Shown: positions 3,473 through 23,626 of the stretch, one piece after another | Position numbering within the stretch: position 1 is the stretch's first letter | Layout of the letters: each line of letters begins with the position of its first letter | The notes under the pieces: model-generated | What the model was told of the DNA's origin: nothing | What the model saw: only the letters and a program-made list of their open reading frames with translations | Databases searched by the model: none | Virus record (IMG/VR): IMGVR_UViG_3300015371_000715 | Location: 1 to 23,626 of that record | Reading direction: 5' to 3' (one strand) | Length of the DNA: 23,626 nucleotides | DNA from: a virus | Position numbers and translations under genes: made by a program

Positions 3473-4432
3473 ATGCCACAAGTTAGAGCGAAGTTTCCTC
3501 AATTGATGCAGACAGGGCTGAAGAAGATTTACTTCGATGCTCTGGATTATCAATTGAAGGCATCTGACTATCCAAAAGTTTTTAACGAAATGACATCGGA
3601 TAGCCAGTATGAGCAGGAATTGGAAATGGCGGGTATCTCGGCTCTTGCTGAGAAGCCCGAAGATGCTTCTACTCAATACACCGAAATGAAGCAGGGCGGT
3701 TCAAAACGGTACCTCCACTTAACGTACTCTCTTGGAATTCGTACTTCCAAGGAGTTGTATGACGACGACAAGTACGGTTTGACGGGCAAAAAGAGTCCAC
3801 AGCTTCTTGCTCGCAGTGCTGCTTTCACACAAGAGATGATTGCTTGGAACGTCTTCAATCAAGGCTTCACGACAGCAATCACGACTGTAGACGGTCTGAG
3901 CCTCTTTAACAACCAGCACGCTCTTATTGGTGGTCCGCAAGCCACAGCGATTGCTCCTGGAGTAGCAGGAGTTATATCTCTGGCCGGCACGTACCCTAAT
4001 CGTCCGTCCGTGGATGTGGATTTTTCAGTAGCAGCATTGCAACTTGCTACTAACCACGCCGCTCGTATGATCGACAACATGGGATTCCCTATCCGTTTGC
4101 GTTGGGAGAATCTTATCACTCCTCCAGAACTTCGGTTCCTTGTTAGAGAGATTCTTGGATCTCCTGGCAAGCCTTATACTCCAGACAACACGATCAATTC
4201 TCTGTTGCCTGAAGACTATAAGAACATCGAAGTTCCGTGGCTCAACTCTCCTTCTGCCTTTTTCTTAGTAGCGGCTAAGGCAGATCATTCTCTTCGTGTT
4301 TATCACAGAGAGCGTCCGACCACCGAATTCGATGATGACTTCGATACGGACGCAATCAAACAGAAGACTCGTTTGAGAATGAGTGCCGGTGCTACACGCT
4401 GGCAGGGAGTTTGGGGAACTTTAGGTCCGTAG
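3473..4432 (+). CDS. Major capsid protein (HK97-like fold expected)
   Basis: A 319-residue protein with a strong ribosome site (GAAGGAG, 8 bases before ATG) that would form the icosahedral shell. Recognisable capsid features are an N-terminal arm and helix (residues 1-60), an extended E-loop-like stretch with the Gln/Gly/Ser-rich MKQGGSKRYLHLTYSLGI (72-89), the spine-helix region (LARSAAFTQEMIAWNVFNQG, 112-131) followed by TTVDGLSLFNNQHAL (137-151), and a beta-rich A-domain and C terminus ending RMSAGATRWQGVWG. The FNQGF...DGLSLFNNQH pattern recurs in capsid proteins I associate with the Mu gpT-like and related HK97-fold families. No N-terminal delta domain or protease site is obvious, consistent with a separate scaffold. 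It is the only gene followed by an apparent terminator-like hairpin, as expected for a highly expressed capsid gene. Confidence 0.85.
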   Translation: MPQVRAKFPQLMQTGLKKIYFDALDYQLKASDYPKVFNEMTSDSQYEQELEMAGISALAEKPEDASTQYTEMKQGGSKRYLHLTYSLGIRTSKELYDDDKYGLTGKKSPQLLARSAAFTQEMIAWNVFNQGFTTAITTVDGLSLFNNQHALIGGPQATAIAPGVAGVISLAGTYPNRPSVDVDFSVAALQLATNHAARMIDNMGFPIRLRWENLITPPELRFLVREILGSPGKPYTPDNTINSLLPEDYKNIEVPWLNSPSAFFLVAAKADHSLRVYHRERPTTEFDDDFDTDAIKQKTRLRMSAGATRWQGVWGTLGP

Positions 4433-8759: not shown

Positions 8760-9518
8760 ATGCCAATGAAGGTTTCTACATTCTATCCTGCCATCAAGAG
8801 ACTTCTGATGGGGCGTACGGTTTCTGAAGCTATTATGGCTGAATCTGTGCGAAAAGGGATTCTGGAACTTACGGAGAATTACAAGTTTCAAGGACTCGAA
8901 GTTTCTGGACCTACGGTGAACTTCACGCCGTATGTTTCTTTTTACTCTCCTGACTACTTTCTGAAACCTGCTGATGCTGGATTGGAGCTTGAGAAAGTGG
9001 ATTCGTTCTATATATTCACTCAAGCCTTTGTTACTGTAACAAGCTCTAGCCAGAGTAATTCTGGTTTCAATCTCAAGTTTCGTACCGTAGATGATAACGA
9101 AGTTCTGATAAACATACCCGGTTTGCCTATGTTCTGGTCACGCTACAATAAACAGATTTGGATTGGAAGTATGCCAGATCAAGACTATCCTGTATACATG
9201 CGCTATCAGAAAGAACATCCTTTTCCTCTCGCTGGAGTAGCTCCTCCAACCACTCCTAACGCTGGTGATGATCCTGTACTTCTTCCTAACTCGTGGCAGG
9301 ACATATGCGAGTACGCCAGTGCAATGCGATGCGCTCAAGAAATAAACCTTTCTGGAAAAGTTACAGAATTGCACACTCGACTTTATGGAGATCAAAAGTT
9401 TCAAACTTCCGATGGAGTAGAAGGTTCGCCCGGTCTTATCTTTCAACGCACTTCTCAAAGAAACCGTGACCAAACTACCAGCCGTAAAAGCTTTCGGCTG
9501 AGAATGGGGATAGTCTAA
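8760..9518 (+). CDS. Head-tail adaptor-like protein (T7 gp11 / P22 gp4 type)
   Basis: A 252-residue protein preceded by AGGAG and ending in a TAATG overlap. Residues 21-52 hold a helix and turn (SVRKGILELTENYKFQGLEV), followed by a beta segment, then a highly patterned stretch: INIPGLPMFWSRYNKQIWIG and PDQDYPVYMRYQKEHPFP (117-157), and a helical C-terminal part (SWQDICEYASAMRCAQEINL...HTRLYGDQKF). Helix-beta insertion-helix with 'P...Y.vyY....p.p....d......P......l...A' is the signature of adaptor proteins that dock under the portal and join it to the nozzle. T7 gp11 has 196 residues, so this one is somewhat longer. A strongly basic tail (RNRDQTTSRKSFRLRM) ends the protein. Family placement is by pattern. 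Confidence 0.6.
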   Translation: MPMKVSTFYPAIKRLLMGRTVSEAIMAESVRKGILELTENYKFQGLEVSGPTVNFTPYVSFYSPDYFLKPADAGLELEKVDSFYIFTQAFVTVTSSSQSNSGFNLKFRTVDDNEVLINIPGLPMFWSRYNKQIWIGSMPDQDYPVYMRYQKEHPFPLAGVAPPTTPNAGDDPVLLPNSWQDICEYASAMRCAQEINLSGKVTELHTRLYGDQKFQTSDGVEGSPGLIFQRTSQRNRDQTTSRKSFRLRMGIV

Positions 9519-14800: not shown

Positions 14801-14922
14801 CAGCTTCTAGCGGCAGATCCACAGCCTTTAAGATGGGACTTCAGGATATTCGTAAAGAGAAGACCATTGAGATTGATGAAATTCTTACTCGGACAGGTGT
14901 GAGAGAAAGGATGGACTTCTAA
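11812..14922 (+). CDS. Large internal virion-like protein C
   Basis: A 1036-residue protein, mostly helical and charged, between two other ejection-type proteins. A possible coiled coil lies near residues 100-140. A long hydrophobic, Ala/Gly-rich segment at 364-418 (MMLPFYKFLG...ASALMGGAEGAVFGYA) could cross or insert into a membrane. A Lys/Ala/Glu-rich linker lies at about 610-670. Residues 684-755 form a compact unit with PRYGFGSKLFQLTFKDPRDL and a following YIKKLA helix, a module that I recall recurring in large unannotated phage proteins. No lytic transglycosylase signature (ES..D / GLMQ) is visible. T7 gp15 and gp16 occupy equivalent positions. The gene starts and stops in TAATG overlaps, so stoichiometry may be set by coupling. 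Confidence 0.5.
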   Translation: MAETQATPLTEEQIYQNLKKLGTPQPWAAKVPTDPAYDVKSRPQERTPEQIDASRRQYAHEMVASREGGGESSGTVPTSTTPSESEDTPDTPFTSVNTSLREQRREEVARTKARVEAGAGAAFDYADKIIERQHEANFYTDLNNMNHEQKLIGLKNLKVNPFLLDSGYDGMMNSLERWKHIASDPKVAKMTPEQKDKAAENYYNMMLVPFYDKMHADAPPLELWKKHAYTDALKWNMDDAYQSHWRRGLYAGFRNWENIYKSGIATIGGVVQDGMKFAENLGFQASSEGRPLTPEQKAPVEGIKADIKEKGIFQHLADNVKDIPILGSTYKSLERASSHDAFWHDINPSEDFVDKTASWIEEQAMMLPFYKFLGKYNAAGISMMGEANLTKALLAKPGGKLLASALMGGAEGAVFGYAMRDDDDKKNAWQDAIGNAIISTIFHIGGTKIKSMSDAAAARKEALNLASKGMKPGTEENLRGPLVDGLASTQAVGGRPLVNSVFREALYLTRSLEGTDKAYRKSLFERNMKDDPARWARIYQAHHYIDALLGGRKLSELSKEEEAHLIKQLHDVSSEASKKVAGTSQVAAAGGKKTVEEMKKTPGGKRTIQDIVNKWKKKDAEAGLPPRPDEQYQALAEHEIAEKQAKAAAKAAEKRAAEPISDALDVQAAREKAEFPQLPTQLRGSKPRYGFGSKLFQLTFKDPRDLAAYTLTQAKENKAHGAFEAWYKEHHPGATPASIVEHAQRVRDYIKKLAAVSNPGDGPLEVPSQAAKPKPRASTTTPPSVTQRTRYATDKYGQPSVSFNTTHSWIVYAKQAVKESGNKWNSAGIKKWLDEIEPSDFARDLHEHFFPKALKDAEIYFEHETEKSLGKQDPNFLAFMYNYRDQMPREFAEKLSSELEDSMKFEKGFNPKVDVEEQKDFYAKGMWNHVADFLHSPSHLEEGETNIYRTTYQNLQTPTVWQHKLHTEVVAQEKKMIEEMFKGKPQEYESAMAAYNAASSGRSTAFKMGLQDIRKEKTIEIDEILTRTGVRERMDF

Positions 14923-16871
14923 TGGGCGGTGGGATTGGTTCTGCTATAGGAGAGATGTTCTCTAGGCTTGGAACTAAGATTCCAGAGTTCCTTGGAAAAT
15001 CCGAATGGGGTTCTACTCTTCACGATATTGCTGGAGCTAAGGACGATTACTTTAGAACAGGCGGAGTAGCTGGACAGAAGCTCCAATCTATGCACATGGA
15101 GTTTCAAAGGATGAGAGCTGCAAGAGAGAAACAGCTTGACATTCCTTTGAACCAACTTCAAAATGATCTTTATAGTCATCCTACTTTGAGTAGGAAGATT
15201 ACAACTGATTCAACTTTAACAGATATTCATAGAGAGCTTAGATTGGCTAATCATCCTGCTGCGGCTACTGCTGCTAGCTTGCAAGGTCCACTCGGACATA
15301 ACGCTGGTAAGACTCTAGCTGAGATTGGACATTACAATATTGCTCAAGCTCGTGTTGAAGCTTCAGCTGCGGTTTTTGGTCCTAAGATGCAGAACGTTAT
15401 TCCATTGATTATGGATGCTTTTGATTCCGGTATTCCTACTCAGATTCATTGGGCAGAAGGAGCGATGAATCTCATCTCTAATGAAACTCACGATCTTACT
15501 ATGTCCAGACCACGTACAGCCGGTGGCTCAAAAGCAACAAGAGCCATAGCTACTGAAGTGTCTGGAACTAGAGAAAAGATTGGAAGAGCTTTCACGCAAG
15601 AGAATGTAATGCGTGAGAAGTTTGCTAAAATCACCGGACAACCGCCTAAGCTTCTTAAAGCTATAAACACAAAGCCGACATACGATAATGCGAAGGATTT
15701 AGAGCGTAATGTTCAAGGAGTCTTGAGAGTTGTACAACTTCCTTTGGTAGCTTTAAAACATCTCTCGACCGTCGGAAATCTTTCTTCGATGCACGCTACT
15801 GAGCTTGTAACCGGATTGCTTAAAATGAGCGATCCTGCTTTCAAAGCGCATCTTGATGCTAGTGCGATTCTTGGTTATACCGAACACGATATGCTTGACA
15901 AAGCTATAAATGGTCGGTTCGGTAAAGTAGCTCATTGGACAGGAAGCCCAACAGTTGGAGACTTATTCTATCGTTCTTATCATATGCCATTCTTTGATGC
16001 TGTACGTCACTGGCAGCTTTCTTTGAGTGCTAGTGTAGGCTATCATTCTGCTGCTAATTGGGCAGCTCAAGCTGTTCAAGGAGACAAGAGAGCCATAAGC
16101 TTGCTTGAAGAGGTCGGAATCAAGACCGCAGATGTTATAAAGCAGGGAGGAATTCTTACAAACGATCAGAAGATTCAAGCCATGTTTCATTTCACAAACA
16201 ATCGGTTCTTTATGGACAAGAGCATTGAGCGTAGCATGTTCTCTAATAAGAATGCTATCTGGCGCTCTGCTACCATGTACCATACGTTTGTGAATGCTCA
16301 ACAACGCTTTATCCGTAGAGAACTTATCCGTATGCTCAAGACAGAAGATTATACTGGGATAGCTCAATTCGCAGGTACTCTCGGAATCCTTTTTCCAGCA
16401 GTAGCTCCAATTTTGAAGAGTTTTGAGATTCTCGGTCGCACAGCTTCTCCTTCTCAAGCTGTAGCTTCTGCTGAAGACGATTATGAGAAGATTCTTCACG
16501 GTTCTTTCCGCGACAGAGCTTTAACCTACATTGATCTTTTGTCTCACTATGGAGCTTTTGGAATCTACTTCAATTATGTAGCTGCGGCTCGTACTAACAG
16601 ATTGGCTTGGGCTATGATGGGACCAACTATAGGAGTAGTTGGTAGAGGTGCTGCTGATATAGGTCAGATGCTTTTTGTAGCTAATAAAGCTCACAAGCAT
16701 AATGCTGCTCCTGTTGTGCGTGATCTTCTTGAAGACCTTGTTCCTATCGCTGGCAACATCATAGCTCATAAGATAGCTCCTACGGAAAAAGAGCAGAAAG
16801 CTGGAGTTCCTCAAAGAACTCCTCGTCCGAGAAGAGACAGAGGACGTGTAAAAAATCCGTGGCAGTATTAG
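14922..16871 (+). CDS. Large internal virion-like protein D with hydrophobic C-terminal third
   Basis: A 649-residue protein, last of the four ejection-type genes. The N-terminal half is helical and charged. From about residue 450 it becomes amphipathic: FTNNRFFMDKSIERSMF leads to hydrophobic stretches at 480-500 (IAQFAGTLGILFPAVAPILK), 543-557 (YGAFGIYFNYVAAA) and 561-588 (LAWAMMGPTIGVVGRGAADI). These could insert into the inner membrane as part of an envelope-spanning DNA channel, as proposed for ejection proteins of podoviruses. The C terminus is Arg/Pro-rich (RTPRPRRDRGRVKNPWQY), perhaps contacting DNA. The N-terminal GGGIGSAIGEMFSRLG is glycine-rich. No catalytic motif is apparent. Confidence 0.5.
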   Translation: MGGGIGSAIGEMFSRLGTKIPEFLGKSEWGSTLHDIAGAKDDYFRTGGVAGQKLQSMHMEFQRMRAAREKQLDIPLNQLQNDLYSHPTLSRKITTDSTLTDIHRELRLANHPAAATAASLQGPLGHNAGKTLAEIGHYNIAQARVEASAAVFGPKMQNVIPLIMDAFDSGIPTQIHWAEGAMNLISNETHDLTMSRPRTAGGSKATRAIATEVSGTREKIGRAFTQENVMREKFAKITGQPPKLLKAINTKPTYDNAKDLERNVQGVLRVVQLPLVALKHLSTVGNLSSMHATELVTGLLKMSDPAFKAHLDASAILGYTEHDMLDKAINGRFGKVAHWTGSPTVGDLFYRSYHMPFFDAVRHWQLSLSASVGYHSAANWAAQAVQGDKRAISLLEEVGIKTADVIKQGGILTNDQKIQAMFHFTNNRFFMDKSIERSMFSNKNAIWRSATMYHTFVNAQQRFIRRELIRMLKTEDYTGIAQFAGTLGILFPAVAPILKSFEILGRTASPSQAVASAEDDYEKILHGSFRDRALTYIDLLSHYGAFGIYFNYVAAARTNRLAWAMMGPTIGVVGRGAADIGQMLFVANKAHKHNAAPVVRDLLEDLVPIAGNIIAHKIAPTEKEQKAGVPQRTPRPRRDRGRVKNPWQY

Positions 16872-16886: not shown

Positions 16887-17033
16887 ATGAGCGGACAGAG
16901 TGCAAACCTAACGCTGAAAGAGTCGAAAGCTTTGCAAGAGCGTGTTCAATGCCACCCTGAGAATCATCAGGGAAAGAAAGGCGGCGGAACTGCTTCGACG
17001 CCAATCGACAAGAAAGTAGCTCATCAGGGCTAG
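16887..17033 (+). CDS. 48-residue peptide gene before the ATP-grasp gene
   Basis: ATG 16887 follows the near-perfect ribosome site AAAGGAGGAG at ideal spacing, and the frame runs to TAG at 17031. The 48-residue product begins MSGQSANLTLKESKALQERV, has CHPENHQGKKGGG in the middle and ends TPIDKKVAHQG. It is hydrophilic and basic, with one Cys, three His and a Gly/Lys hinge, and no signal peptide or membrane segment. It starts 15 bases after the stop of the preceding protein and ends 12 bases before the ATP-grasp start, so it is almost certainly co-transcribed with that enzyme. I recognise no family. Possible roles are a small virion component, a regulatory peptide, or the substrate of the neighbouring ligase. 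Confidence 0.6.
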   Translation: MSGQSANLTLKESKALQERVQCHPENHQGKKGGGTASTPIDKKVAHQG

Positions 17034-17045
17034 AAAGAGGCAAGT

Positions 17046-18359
17046 GTGAAAGTAGCAATGTCTTCGTACACTGGAATTGGAGCATGGTTTGTGTTTCTGC
17101 TTACGGCGGAAGGACATGACGTGGACTATTATCTTTCCAAGCCAGAGTACGAAGACGTGCTAAAAGGAATCATTCATCCTCCAAAGCTTCTAAGTCTGGA
17201 TCATAGAAGGACGGTGGCTGGTTATGGTTATCCCTCCTATAAGTCTTACGACCTCTCGCTCTTTGATGTTACAGGGCGTCAAAAGCAAGCCGAAGCTTCA
17301 AGAGCGGAATGTCCTACTTTTGGAGACGGACAGTTGGAGCATCTACTTGAAGACGACAGGGAGTTTGGTATACAAACGATGGAGGAATGCGGTATCTGCG
17401 TTCCACCTTATACCAGATTTGACAATTCTTCGGAAGCGAAGGCTTTTATCAAGAAGTCGGATAAACGTTTTGTATTTAAACCATATGAAGGAGGAACAGG
17501 ATCTGAAGACAAGAGCATTACTTATGTATCGAAGGATGCTCAAGATATGCTTAAAGTTATTGACTCTTTATGGGAACGTTCTAAAAGACATCCTTTTATT
17601 CTTCAGGAATATGTTAAGGGGAAAGAAGTAGGTTGTGCCGGATACTTTAACGGAACCGACTTCTATCTTTTAACTGGCTCTCTTGAAGAGAAGAAGTTTA
17701 TGAATGATAATAAAGGTCCAAACACGGGATGCTCTGGAAATCTGATCTTTACCATGCACGAGCACATGCACTTATATAAAGAAGGGCTTGAAAAGGCTAA
17801 GCCCTTCTTAGCTAAAGCTGGCTTTCGAGGAATCATAGACTTGAACTCAATTGTAACAGAAGGAGAGTTCTATGGACTCGAATGGACGCCGAGATTTGGA
17901 TACCTTTCTGATCCTATTATTGCTAATATGTATGGTTCTGATTTTGGTGAATTGCTACATAAAGTAGCGGCTGGAGAAGTGCCGGAGCTTAAATGGGGTG
18001 GCGGTTCTATAGGAGTTTCGGTTACTGTTTCAATTCCACCTTATCCTACGGAGATTCGGATTCCTAAAGCCGAAGGAGTACCAGTGGAAGGGATTGATCC
18101 TGAAGATTACGAAACTCTCAAACAGATTTTCATGTACGATGTAAGACTGACTAAGGATAAGAAGAATTTAGAAACAAGCGGCAACTACGGTTATGTCTGT
18201 GCTCCGATTGGAGTGGGAGAAAGTATCTATGAAGCTTTTGCGGATTTTCATGCTATCTTTGATAAGATACAAATTCCCGACATGCAGTTTCGTACAGACA
18301 TTGAGAAAGTCGTAACCGAACGATTTTATGAACTTGAAAAGAACTCGTGGTTTTCGTAG
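17046..18359 (+). CDS. ATP-grasp ligase resembling PurD (GAR synthetase)
   Basis: A 437-residue protein starting at GTG 17046 with AGAGG five bases upstream. Residues 1-45 form a beta-alpha nucleotide-fold-like entry (KVAMSSYTGIGAWFVFLLTA). From about 90 the order of PurD follows: TFGDGQLEHLLEDD (91-104), FVFKPYEGGTGS with Lys145, FILQEYVKGKEVG (184-196, Glu188), KFMNDNKGPNTGCSG (217-231, compare PurD GPNTGGMG), GIIDLNSIV, and GLEWTPRFG (277-285, compare EFNVRFGDPE; Glu279 kept, Asn replaced by Thr). The C-terminal 110 residues match the PurD tail, including IQIPDMQFRTDIEK (408-421). PurD joins glycine to phosphoribosylamine using ATP. Here the PurD glycine-rich loop (GxGGREHA) and GPEAPL motif that hold that substrate are absent, so the acceptor probably differs. 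It sits among virion genes, not purine genes. Confidence 0.8.
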   Translation: MKVAMSSYTGIGAWFVFLLTAEGHDVDYYLSKPEYEDVLKGIIHPPKLLSLDHRRTVAGYGYPSYKSYDLSLFDVTGRQKQAEASRAECPTFGDGQLEHLLEDDREFGIQTMEECGICVPPYTRFDNSSEAKAFIKKSDKRFVFKPYEGGTGSEDKSITYVSKDAQDMLKVIDSLWERSKRHPFILQEYVKGKEVGCAGYFNGTDFYLLTGSLEEKKFMNDNKGPNTGCSGNLIFTMHEHMHLYKEGLEKAKPFLAKAGFRGIIDLNSIVTEGEFYGLEWTPRFGYLSDPIIANMYGSDFGELLHKVAAGEVPELKWGGGSIGVSVTVSIPPYPTEIRIPKAEGVPVEGIDPEDYETLKQIFMYDVRLTKDKKNLETSGNYGYVCAPIGVGESIYEAFADFHAIFDKIQIPDMQFRTDIEKVVTERFYELEKNSWFS

Positions 18360-18368
18360 GAGAAGAAT

Positions 18369-19286
18369 ATGCCACTTCCCGATCCAAGACAAACTCTTTC
18401 CGGTACGGCTACTGACTCGGATGGTCAGATTTGGATGTACGGTTCTTATAGAATTGAGTTCTTTCCAGCCCAAGGCTATCCGAATTTGAGTGAGTATTTT
18501 GTTGATAATGATACTCCTCTTTCTTCATTTCAAACAGTATTTACCGGGAACTTGGATGCGAGTGCCCATTTTTCTCAAACTGGTATTGTCAATAATAATC
18601 GTATTACTCCTGTAGGAAGCAAGTGGAGAATCTATATCTGCCCTCTTGCTACATCTGAGTGCGGAGTTTTCGATATGGCGGTTACAGCAGATGCCGACAT
18701 AACTGCTTTAATCAACGCCAACATTCAAGCTCCCCGCTTTCCGGCAATATATGGAAACTATGGGTACAACGATCTTGAAGCTCAGATACAGAGCACTCCT
18801 TCTAGCTGGTACTATAACGTAGTTCTCTTGTGTTTGAGAACTTACAACTACCAGACTCTAGCGTGGAACTGTGCTACTACAGCCACGATAGTACAACCAT
18901 TCCCCGGAGCAATAGGAGCTACGTTTGACGGTGGACAGAACGTACCTAATACCAGTCTTCCTCTAATACGCTATATCACTTTACCATTCAACGCTACAAT
19001 AACTAACTGGACTCTTGTTGGAGATTCGATTGGAGATTGTAGTATTGATTTATGGTTTATTCCCGGTAGTGCTCCACCGGCTGCACCGTCTATTCCGCTT
19101 GTTGGAAATAAGATTAGTGCTGCTGCTCCTATCAGTATGACTGGAGTACAGTCTAAGTCTGGAGATGCTACTGCAATTGCTACTTGGTCGAAGTCTATTA
19201 CAAAGTGGGGAACTCTAGCTTTTGTTATGACTTCAGTCAACTTCGTTCACACAATCTCTGTGGAGATTCAAGTATCAAGATCATAG
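18369..19286 (+). CDS. Tail adhesin-like protein, first copy of duplicated domain
   Basis: A 305-residue beta-rich protein, preceded by TAGGAGAAG, opening the adhesin cassette. Residues about 9-165 form a domain that is also found, by eye, at the N terminus of the last gene in the window: SGTATDSDGQIWMYGSYRIEF, the PVGSKWRIYICPLATSECGVF segment with a Cys-x6-Cys pair (C91, C98), NIQAPRF, then YGYNDLEAQI and WYYNVVLLCLRTYNYQTLAW. The remaining 130 residues look like a separate beta-sandwich (LPLIRYITLPFNATITNWTL onward). No signal peptide is present here, unlike the related gene. A short tail fibre, fibre cap or receptor-binding protein is the likely role, inferred from the position after ejection genes and the lack of enzyme motifs. 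Confidence 0.6.
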   Translation: MPLPDPRQTLSGTATDSDGQIWMYGSYRIEFFPAQGYPNLSEYFVDNDTPLSSFQTVFTGNLDASAHFSQTGIVNNNRITPVGSKWRIYICPLATSECGVFDMAVTADADITALINANIQAPRFPAIYGNYGYNDLEAQIQSTPSSWYYNVVLLCLRTYNYQTLAWNCATTATIVQPFPGAIGATFDGGQNVPNTSLPLIRYITLPFNATITNWTLVGDSIGDCSIDLWFIPGSAPPAAPSIPLVGNKISAAAPISMTGVQSKSGDATAIATWSKSITKWGTLAFVMTSVNFVHTISVEIQVSRS

Positions 19287-21408: not shown

Positions 21409-23626
21409 ATGAAAAAGCATCTTGCTTTCTTTCTTGGCATTCTTTTTTCCGCAGGATGCTATGCCCAAAACACAGTAGTTTCTGCTACGGTTGTGGATTC
21501 AGATGGTATAGCTTGGGCTAATGGTACATGGACAATGTCTATGACGCCTGGATCTTCAAACTCGAATCCTTCTAGTTATACTGTGGACGGTGTTCCTGTT
21601 TCTGCTTCAGTTATAAACCAAACCGGCACTCTTAACGGTAGCGGAGCTTTATCCGTTACGGTTTATGAAACCACTCACATCGCTCCCACAGGTAGCAGAT
21701 GGCTTCTTAATGTCTGTCCAAAATCTTCCGCTCCTTGTTCTCAGTACAGCTTCGCCGCTGTAGGGGCTTCGCAGAATATAAGCTCTCAGCTTACAGCTGT
21801 AATTACAGCCCCACGTTTCAATCCTGTTTCTAGCTCTTATGGCTATGCCGATGTAGAAGCTCAGGCTCCTTTAAAACCTGGAAGCACTTACTATAATGTT
21901 ACACTTTCTGCTCAACGTACTTATGACGGAGCTGCTTGGAGTAGTGGAAGTGGCGCAGGAGCAACTACTCCAGCAACTACTAAACTTCTTCAAGGTAACG
22001 GATCACCTAACGGAGTTATAGCTGGAACTCCACAAAGTATGGCTACAACTGCGATAGGAACTGATGCTACAAGCATGTTTCTTTCAAGTCTCAACCCAAC
22101 TAATCCTGGTACAAATAATTTTGTATTTGGTATACAAGCTGGTTCAAACATTTTCACCGCTGGTGTGAGTGGCTCAACATGGCTTGGTGGTAATAATGTA
22201 TTGTTAGGTACTCAAGCGGGAAAATCTTTAACCTCAGCGTCAGATAACGTATTGATTGGATACCAAGCAGGACAATTGTTACAAGGTGGCTCGTCTACTG
22301 GTTGTACCGCTAGCGGTGGATCAGAAGAAGATGGAATAGTTACAGCAGTTGGAGAAAACGCTGCTGCTGCTGTGAACACACCGACAGGCGGTGTTTGTCA
22401 AATGGACTCATCTTTCTATGGGCAAAAGGCAGGTGGAGCGGTTGCTACTTCCTATCAGGATACTTATATTGGAGCACATACTGGTGCGGGTACTTTTAAT
22501 ATCGGTACAAGTTTTGGCAGCACAATTTTAGGATCGTGGGCAGGTGCTCCTACTGCTGCTGTTACGACAGCAAATTATGATACATTTGTTGGAGCAGATT
22601 CTGCACAAGGTGCAGGGGGAACGTGGGCGCATGATACAGGTGTAGGTTTCTCTGCTTTATCTAAACTTGATGGAACAGCAATTAATACTGCTGATTGGAA
22701 CTCGACTCTCGGAGATTCCGCAGGATGCAGCATATCAAGCGGGCGCTACAACGTTTTCGTAGGTGGAGAAGCAGGCGGCTTTTTTGGAAACTGCGGTACT
22801 AATCCTATTACCGGCAGCGGAAATATCGGTATCGGACGGCAAGCTATGTATACTCAAGGGGCAGGTATTTCTGGTTCTAATAATACAATCATCGGAACTG
22901 GAGCGGCAACGAATCCAGTAGTTACTTCAGGTAGTAATAATGTCGCGATTGGTCCTGGAATGAAAGCAATGGGTGGAGCTTCTAATATAATTATGCTTGG
23001 AAATGCTACAGATATTCACGCAAACGGTACGGAAGTGGATCAAATCTTGATAGGTAACCAAGCAAATACTGTAGCTGGTGACCATGCAGATATTGCTATC
23101 GGTAAGCTTGCTGTAGCAGGAAATAGTCTCGCAATTGCTATCGGTAATCAAGCAGCAGCTAACAATAACAGAAGTATTGCGATTGGAAATCAGGCCACCG
23201 CTAGTTCTGATACGGATGTTGCTATAGGTACGGCTGCTATAGCATCTGGAGTAAACTCAATAGAACTAGGGGCGGGAACCTGCTCAATAGCTTCAAGTCT
23301 CTGTCTATATGGTACTAGAATAGCTAGTTCTGGTGGAGCAATTGTTGGAAATACATATAACACAGCGACTAATTGTGCTGTTAATTCTGTCTCTCCAGCA
23401 GCTTGTGTAGCAGCTCCAGCTGGTGCATTTGTAGTTCCAACATCTACCACAACCTACACAGTAAATACAACAGCCGTCACAGCAGCATCAAGAATCTTTC
23501 TTCAACCAATGTCTTTTGCTAGCAACCTTCCATCTACTCCAACATGCGTTGCTCCAGCAGTTACCAGTGCTGTAACTATCTCGGCAATTGTAGCTGGTAC
23601 AAGTTTTACTTTTGCATTGCCGAGTA
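21409..23626 (+). CDS. YadA-like tail adhesin with signal peptide, 3'-partial
   Basis: The frame from ATG 21409 (AAAGGAG, seven bases upstream) stays open to the right edge, giving 739 codons without a stop. Residues 1-19 look like a Sec signal peptide: KKH, a hydrophobic core LAFFLGILFSAG, then CYA before Q20; a lipoprotein site at C17 is less likely (FSAGC). Residues 25-185 repeat the domain of the first adhesin gene, with a matching Cys-x6-Cys (C103, C110). From about residue 262 to 626 there are some 15 repeats of the type NVLIGYQAG, SIAIGNQAT, DVAIGTAAI, the hallmark of YadA/haemagglutinin trimeric beta-roll heads. A following domain (GAFVVPTSTTTYTVNTTAVT...GTSFTFAL) looks like a C-terminal cap. 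Likely a trimeric receptor-binding or host-exported adhesin; no membrane anchor is seen so far. Confidence 0.7.
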   Translation, partial: MKKHLAFFLGILFSAGCYAQNTVVSATVVDSDGIAWANGTWTMSMTPGSSNSNPSSYTVDGVPVSASVINQTGTLNGSGALSVTVYETTHIAPTGSRWLLNVCPKSSAPCSQYSFAAVGASQNISSQLTAVITAPRFNPVSSSYGYADVEAQAPLKPGSTYYNVTLSAQRTYDGAAWSSGSGAGATTPATTKLLQGNGSPNGVIAGTPQSMATTAIGTDATSMFLSSLNPTNPGTNNFVFGIQAGSNIFTAGVSGSTWLGGNNVLLGTQAGKSLTSASDNVLIGYQAGQLLQGGSSTGCTASGGSEEDGIVTAVGENAAAAVNTPTGGVCQMDSSFYGQKAGGAVATSYQDTYIGAHTGAGTFNIGTSFGSTILGSWAGAPTAAVTTANYDTFVGADSAQGAGGTWAHDTGVGFSALSKLDGTAINTADWNSTLGDSAGCSISSGRYNVFVGGEAGGFFGNCGTNPITGSGNIGIGRQAMYTQGAGISGSNNTIIGTGAATNPVVTSGSNNVAIGPGMKAMGGASNIIMLGNATDIHANGTEVDQILIGNQANTVAGDHADIAIGKLAVAGNSLAIAIGNQAAANNNRSIAIGNQATASSDTDVAIGTAAIASGVNSIELGAGTCSIASSLCLYGTRIASSGGAIVGNTYNTATNCAVNSVSPAACVAAPAGAFVVPTSTTTYTVNTTAVTAASRIFLQPMSFASNLPSTPTCVAPAVTSAVTISAIVAGTSFTFALPS
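22192..23280 (+). repeat. About 15 YadA-type beta-roll repeats (coding)
   Basis: Short protein repeats of the form [N/D/S]-x-x-[I/L/V]-G-x-x-A recur at varying spacing: NVLLGTQAG, NVLIGYQAG, DTYIGAHTG, DTFVGADSA, NVFVGGEAG, NIGIGRQAM, NTIIGTGAA, NVAIGPGMK, QILIGNQAN, DIAIGKLAV, AIAIGNQAA, SIAIGNQAT, DVAIGTAAI, SIELGAGTC. Spacing tightens to 13-16 residues near the end, as in a regular left-handed beta-roll, and is looser with insertions at the start. Confidence 0.7.

Follow-up and report, generated by a model that had tools for sequence, protein, structure and literature searches.

The window, that is, the whole stretch of DNA analyzed here (23,626 nucleotides), represents, by its gene content, part of the genome of an uncultivated tailed phage, and it had no Rfam or tRNA matches. 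Its virion module contains a gene for a PurD-like ATP-grasp ligase that lies behind a long helical protein and a short basic protein and is followed by spike-type genes (Table 1). Close relatives of the ligase have an ATG at the site of its GTG start. The reading frame of the short basic protein, which the original prediction did not mention, has a good ribosome-binding site, AAAGGAGGAG, ahead of its ATG. PHROGs gave no useful match for either the ligase or this short protein.

Table 1. Positions of the ligase gene and of other virion-module features in the window
Feature	Position	Strand	Remarks
Major capsid protein, Mu gpT-like / phrog_371	3473..4432	+	Marker of the virion module
Helical protein, 649 aa, before the cassette	14922..16871	+	Putative ejection/internal-virion type, by position only; pLDDT 71
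Basic low-complexity protein, 48 aa, MSGQSANLTLKESKALQERVQ...	16887..17033	+	Conserved N-terminal segment, variable tail
PurD-like ATP-grasp ligase	17046..18359	+	437 aa, GTG start
Spike/fiber-type protein, 305 aa, DSDG domain	18369..19286	+	Without signal peptide
Spike/adhesin-type protein, at least 739 aa	21409..23626	+	Runs past the window end; signal peptide MKKHLAFFLGILFSAGCYA, DSDG domain, then head-type repeats

Genomic context and distribution of the ligase gene

The ligase gene had been placed in the virion module, between ejection and adhesin genes and outside any purine cluster. The late, virion-module position holds over the several phage lineages that were surveyed, but the term ejection came from position only; the 649-residue protein had no PDB match by Foldseek with E <0.001 and no family match, so that its assignment stays putative. 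In the lineage of the window, the gene order is a homologue of the 649-residue helical gene, the ligase, and then the spike-type genes. Contigs of this lineage were gathered by means of an unrelated virion gene (8760–9518), and the ligase was present in all 25 that reach past the helical gene (22 distinct ligases). A lineage of lake phages, whose contigs were gathered through a conserved stabilization-type gene unrelated to the ligase, carries it in the late module of 18 of 18 long contigs (13 distinct ligases). There the gene either overlaps a large, very variable gene or directly adjoins it, and it lies upstream of the fiber genes; in several contigs lysozyme-like genes also lie downstream of it. 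Judged by the appearance of the genes, placement is similar at L065, L067, L236, L144, and L145. At least two well-sampled phage lineages have the ligase as a core gene of their late/virion module.

The median identity of the ligase is 63%, compared with 26–34% for the adjacent ejection-type genes and less than 40% for the spikes; the gene that opens the module (17–1111) is conserved to a similar degree (61%). The notion that the ligase surpasses all other genes of the phage in conservation was dropped, as the capsid protein (82%) and the genes w2808 and w4523 exceed it. The dN/dS ratio (omega) of the ligase is about 0.04 in close pairs, indicating purifying selection. At L008:10001-11286 and L078, a frameshift in one contig breaks the ligase gene into two overlapping reading frames, and near relatives (L005) have intact copies.

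Scanning of viral contigs found seven close loci (62–66% identity) and, at the next step, 58 loci with identities as low as 28%. The lake-phage lineage comprises 49 loci, which are 67–73% related to an unannotated reading frame of MW202796.1, the sole clear member in the reference phage collection. A survey of 84,980 bacterial and archaeal genomes turned up five contigs from metagenome-assembled genomes (MAGs) with members or likely members; a sixth bacterial match, L147, was rejected as a true PurD. By these counts, the family is almost wholly phage-borne. A literature search found no published description of this ligase family.

Several other features of these genomes were observed. Spike/adhesin genes downstream of the ligase have, by a simple rule, a Sec-type signal peptide before the DSDG domain at 32 of 37 loci (for example, MKKLLALLGTLLCMGSVSFAQ; the loci include 21409–23626 of the window, L002:11318, L011, L024, and L053), and none of the 518 other virion genes from the same phages has one. 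Such a signal is odd on proteins of a particle that is assembled in the cytoplasm. A GNAT acetyltransferase gene (L009:10654-11100) is located amid the lake-lineage tail genes, a few genes upstream of the ligase. Three genomes, G004, G009, and G010 (L148–L150, L154–L156, L159–L161), encode GroES-type Cpn10 and an FtsK/SpoIIIE-like protein, with a DnaJ-like protein too in G004, and MW202796 has an annotated Cpn10 within its head module.

A small open reading frame lies upstream of the ligase at all 47 window-lineage loci (43 by script and four by inspection). Extra reading frames stand between the two genes at some loci, and at L055 the small one is about 0.9 kb upstream. The encoded proteins have 41–83 residues, are rich in Gly, Ser, Lys, and His, and have a recognizable N-terminus, M[SA]GQSA..LSLKEAKAMQERVQ in the closer half and plausibly related forms in the remainder; most close pairs differ by few amino acid changes. 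A scan with the peptide only found 26 loci, all 26 on window-lineage contigs, and the three new ones that were checked all have the ligase. The small protein was absent from the lake lineage and the other distant lineages inspected, where the ligase is 26–30% identical. Small basic proteins of another form, MPLK.G..KKT.SKNI......KPQKQAIAIALS, were seen near the ligase in both lineages (L060:5857-5994; L195:10226-10363; L213; L231).

Relation of the ligase to PurD

The motifs from which the ligase was originally recognized as PurD-like, K145, E188, G224–G228, E279–G285, and QFRTDI (414–419), are all found at those positions. In the Pfam scan, the 437-residue protein matched GARS_A above its cut-off (9.8e-11) and GARS_C below it (7e-5), and no GARS_N match was reported. 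PurD membership was judged by the curated equivalog model TIGR00877, which has a cut-off of 288 bits; the ligase scored 83.9 bits (9.6e-24), whereas true PurDs of bacterial genomes scored 413–582. These matches bear out the description of a PurD-like but diverged protein. A profile of the ligase family matched PurDs in the PDB at 1e-34 to 1e-16. The 437-residue reading frame encodes a real ATP-grasp enzyme, and its likeness to PurD is far above chance. Identity to PurD is 19%, at which level any prediction of substrates is loose.

An AlphaFold2 model of the ligase, built from an alignment of 47 family members, had a mean pLDDT of 92. By Foldseek and VIA-align, the model superposes on PurD over the full length; the best PurD structures aligned at 3.1–3.3 Å across 381–400 of the 437 residues (for 2yw2, 3.3 Å, 400 residues, Z 33.4). 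The next families, PurK, biotin carboxylase, PurT, and PylC, had Z values of about 23–24. The model shows the whole PurD fold. In an IQ-TREE phylogeny the phage ligases and PurDs formed separate clades (support 99/98 and 99/99), and this tree, having no outgroup, does not give their order of origin. The ligase either derived from PurD or arose alongside it in the explanation that we rate best, which as a whole we consider somewhat better than an even chance.

In PurD of A. aeolicus, ATP and Mg are bound by E100, K103, K143, E185, E192, and K214, and glycine by D212, R287, and E292 (PMC8880213). In a family-profile alignment to this protein, E100, K103, K143, E192, and K214 correspond to E102, R105, K145, E194, and K216 of the ligase, and E185 to Q187. 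Glu188, listed in the original prediction among the residues aligned with PurD by eye, is therefore not the equivalent of the ATP-binding Glu185. The glycine residues correspond to E214, R283, and S288, the last being A, C, S, or L in relatives. E102, R105, K145, K216, E279, R283, R416, and D418 are invariant in the family, and E194 is nearly so. By these alignments, the basic ATP-binding residues, the Mg-binding glutamate, and the acyl-phosphate arginine required of an ATP-grasp amide ligase are present.

Of the 111 columns conserved among 17 PurDs, the phage family retains 35. The changes include the GREHA and GPEAPL loops, FHAGT, the DPE of RFGDPE, and the replacements Y to D265, G to N267, and N to T281. 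The N-terminal loops, present in 16–17 of the 17 PurDs, are altered or absent in the phage sequences; GxGGREHA and GPEAPL, reported missing in the original prediction, are indeed missing, also across 52 aligned relatives. The sequence DDREFGI does differ from the GSKAFAK of PurD, but it is not a lost ATP contact, because E102 and R105, both invariant, occupy the positions of E100 and K103 in the alignment and can serve the same role; the contact has changed conservatively, from lysine to arginine. On lost ATP and phosphoribosylamine contacts, the original prediction went further than present knowledge allows.

R105, E214, D265, and N267 are invariant in all phage lineages sampled (the window lineage, 48 lake sequences, and seven from other lineages), and K217 and T281 are nearly so. 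At the R105, E214, D265, N267, K217, and T281 columns the 17 PurDs have K, D, Y/F, G, R, and N, respectively, with one alanine exception at the K217 column. A metal or substrate site different from that of PurD may be made up of D265-x-N267 together with E279-x-T281. As read from the alignments, another, equally invariant set of residues stands in place of the loops on the phosphoribosylamine side and of half the glycine pocket. R105, E214, D265-x-N267, and E-x-T-x-R provide a simple test that separates the phage family from PurD.

These results bear on whether the protein, though diverged, is still a genuine GAR synthetase, encoded by an auxiliary metabolic gene that raises the purine supply during infection. 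It has the PurD fold, family-level similarity, and an intact ATP site, and metagenome surveys place viral purD among the auxiliary metabolic genes (PMC11097641, PMC11360552, PMC12043954). Yet its 84 bits are far below the 288-bit cut-off, GxGGREHA, GPEAPL, FHAGT, RFGDPE, and E292 are lost, and D212 is changed to E. The late virion position is constant in two lineages, and each of the five MAG assemblies with members or likely members also encodes its own complete PurD, at 413–582 bits. No other purine genes were found by Pfam in most proteins of G004 and parts of G009 and G010 (genomes of 49–52 kb), nor in annotated MW202796. By score, motifs, and neighbors, we reject a purine auxiliary gene, a reading with very little probability left to it; the ligase family is not PurD, though the whole PurD fold is retained.

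Proposed function and comparison with known systems

The rebuilt substrate pocket and the constant place among particle genes suggest that the enzyme probably joins two molecules late in infection and does not serve purine synthesis. With some preference, though hardly with assurance, we propose a phage-specific, PurD-related amide ligase that acts on substrates other than those of GAR synthetase and has a late or virion product as acceptor. From the conserved residues and fold, a carboxylate would be phosphorylated with ATP and Mg2+ to an acyl phosphate, which would then be coupled to an amine to give an amide. The original prediction held that the enzyme still activates a carboxylate with ATP and joins it to a different amine. 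The residues for ATP and acyl-phosphate chemistry are kept and the pockets differ, as it implied; an unchanged carboxylate is unsupported, because the glycine side is altered too (D212 to E214, E292 to A/C/S/L). Since the ligase is fixed in the late/virion module, the acceptor is most likely a late gene product, presumably a virion or ejected protein. The position could, however, reflect the timing of expression and not a virion target.

The location amid virion genes would also suit a structural or ejected protein that has kept the ATP-grasp fold and lost catalysis. Such a protein would not need the ATP and acyl-phosphate residues, which are invariant or nearly so in lineages less than 30% identical, and we find this the least probable explanation of all. 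Alternatively, the enzyme might build an amide-linked group on, or transfer one to, a component of the host envelope, either the cell wall or a surface glycan, and so serve in lysis or in superinfection exclusion. This would agree with the presumed late expression and with the lake-lineage gene standing directly before fiber and lysozyme-like genes, and amidoligase/amidotransferase genes of other phages have been proposed to alter cell walls, according to work cited in PMC10580990. The window-lineage gene, however, precedes spikes and not lysis genes, and no amidotransferase, GS-like ligase, or transferase accompanies the ligase in the genomes scanned, which leaves an envelope target improbable.

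Most ATP-grasp amide ligases, including PurD, use small molecules, and the product could accordingly be a small-molecule amide, such as a precursor for modification of a DNA base or a fiber sugar. Against this, neither further base-modification genes nor late glycosylation genes were seen among the families listed for G004 (the complete Pfam list and the top 25 of 53 with PHROGs) or in parts of G009 and G010 (Pfam); we give this explanation the same low standing as an envelope target.

To return to an acceptor among late products, that of the window lineage may perhaps be the 48-residue basic protein, a candidate substrate or partner of the ligase. It cannot be a universal acceptor, since the lake lineage and other distant ones lack it. 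A narrower version is that the ligase and the 41–83-residue protein are a peptide-modification pair in the virion module, in which the PurD-fold enzyme would join an amine or amino acid to a ribosomal phage peptide that is then packaged or ejected; this we regard as unlikely, if less so than the small-molecule and envelope explanations.

A core late gene with a new, fixed signature hints at a covalent modification in the biology of the phage particle. Viral entries labeled purD in catalogues of auxiliary genes may not be purine genes.

Among known systems, PurD (TIGR00877; PDB 2yw2, 2xcl, 1vkz) shares with the ligase the full-length fold, the ATP-site residues, the GPNTG loop, the E-x-x-x-R-x-G strand, and the C-terminal R-x-D-I. 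The ligase differs in the loss of GREHA, GPEAPL, RFGDPE, and FHAGT, in its altered ligands of the glycine amino group (D212/E292), in D265/N267 for Y/G and T281 for N, in scoring far under the equivalog cut-off, and in its late phage module. PylC, PurK, PurT, and biotin carboxylase have the ATP-grasp core and carboxylate activation in common with the ligase, about ten Z units below PurD against the model. Graspetide (omega-ester peptide) systems likewise have a short precursor-like peptide, with a conserved N-terminus and a variable tail, by an ATP-grasp gene; their ligases are RimK-like and not PurD-like, and the window lineage differs from them in having no repeated core motif and in that the peptide is missing from other lineages of the family. 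Phage-encoded carboxylate-amine ligases are also known from the amidoligase clusters of LUZ24-like phages (COOH-NH2 ligase, Amidoligase_2, GATase, and ATP-grasp) and the amidoligase/GATase of OM43 phages. The amidoligase genes of UFV-P2 belong to its early/replication module and are accompanied there by an amidotransferase (PMC3890496). The ligase described here, by contrast, is of PurD type, stands alone, and is encoded in the late module.
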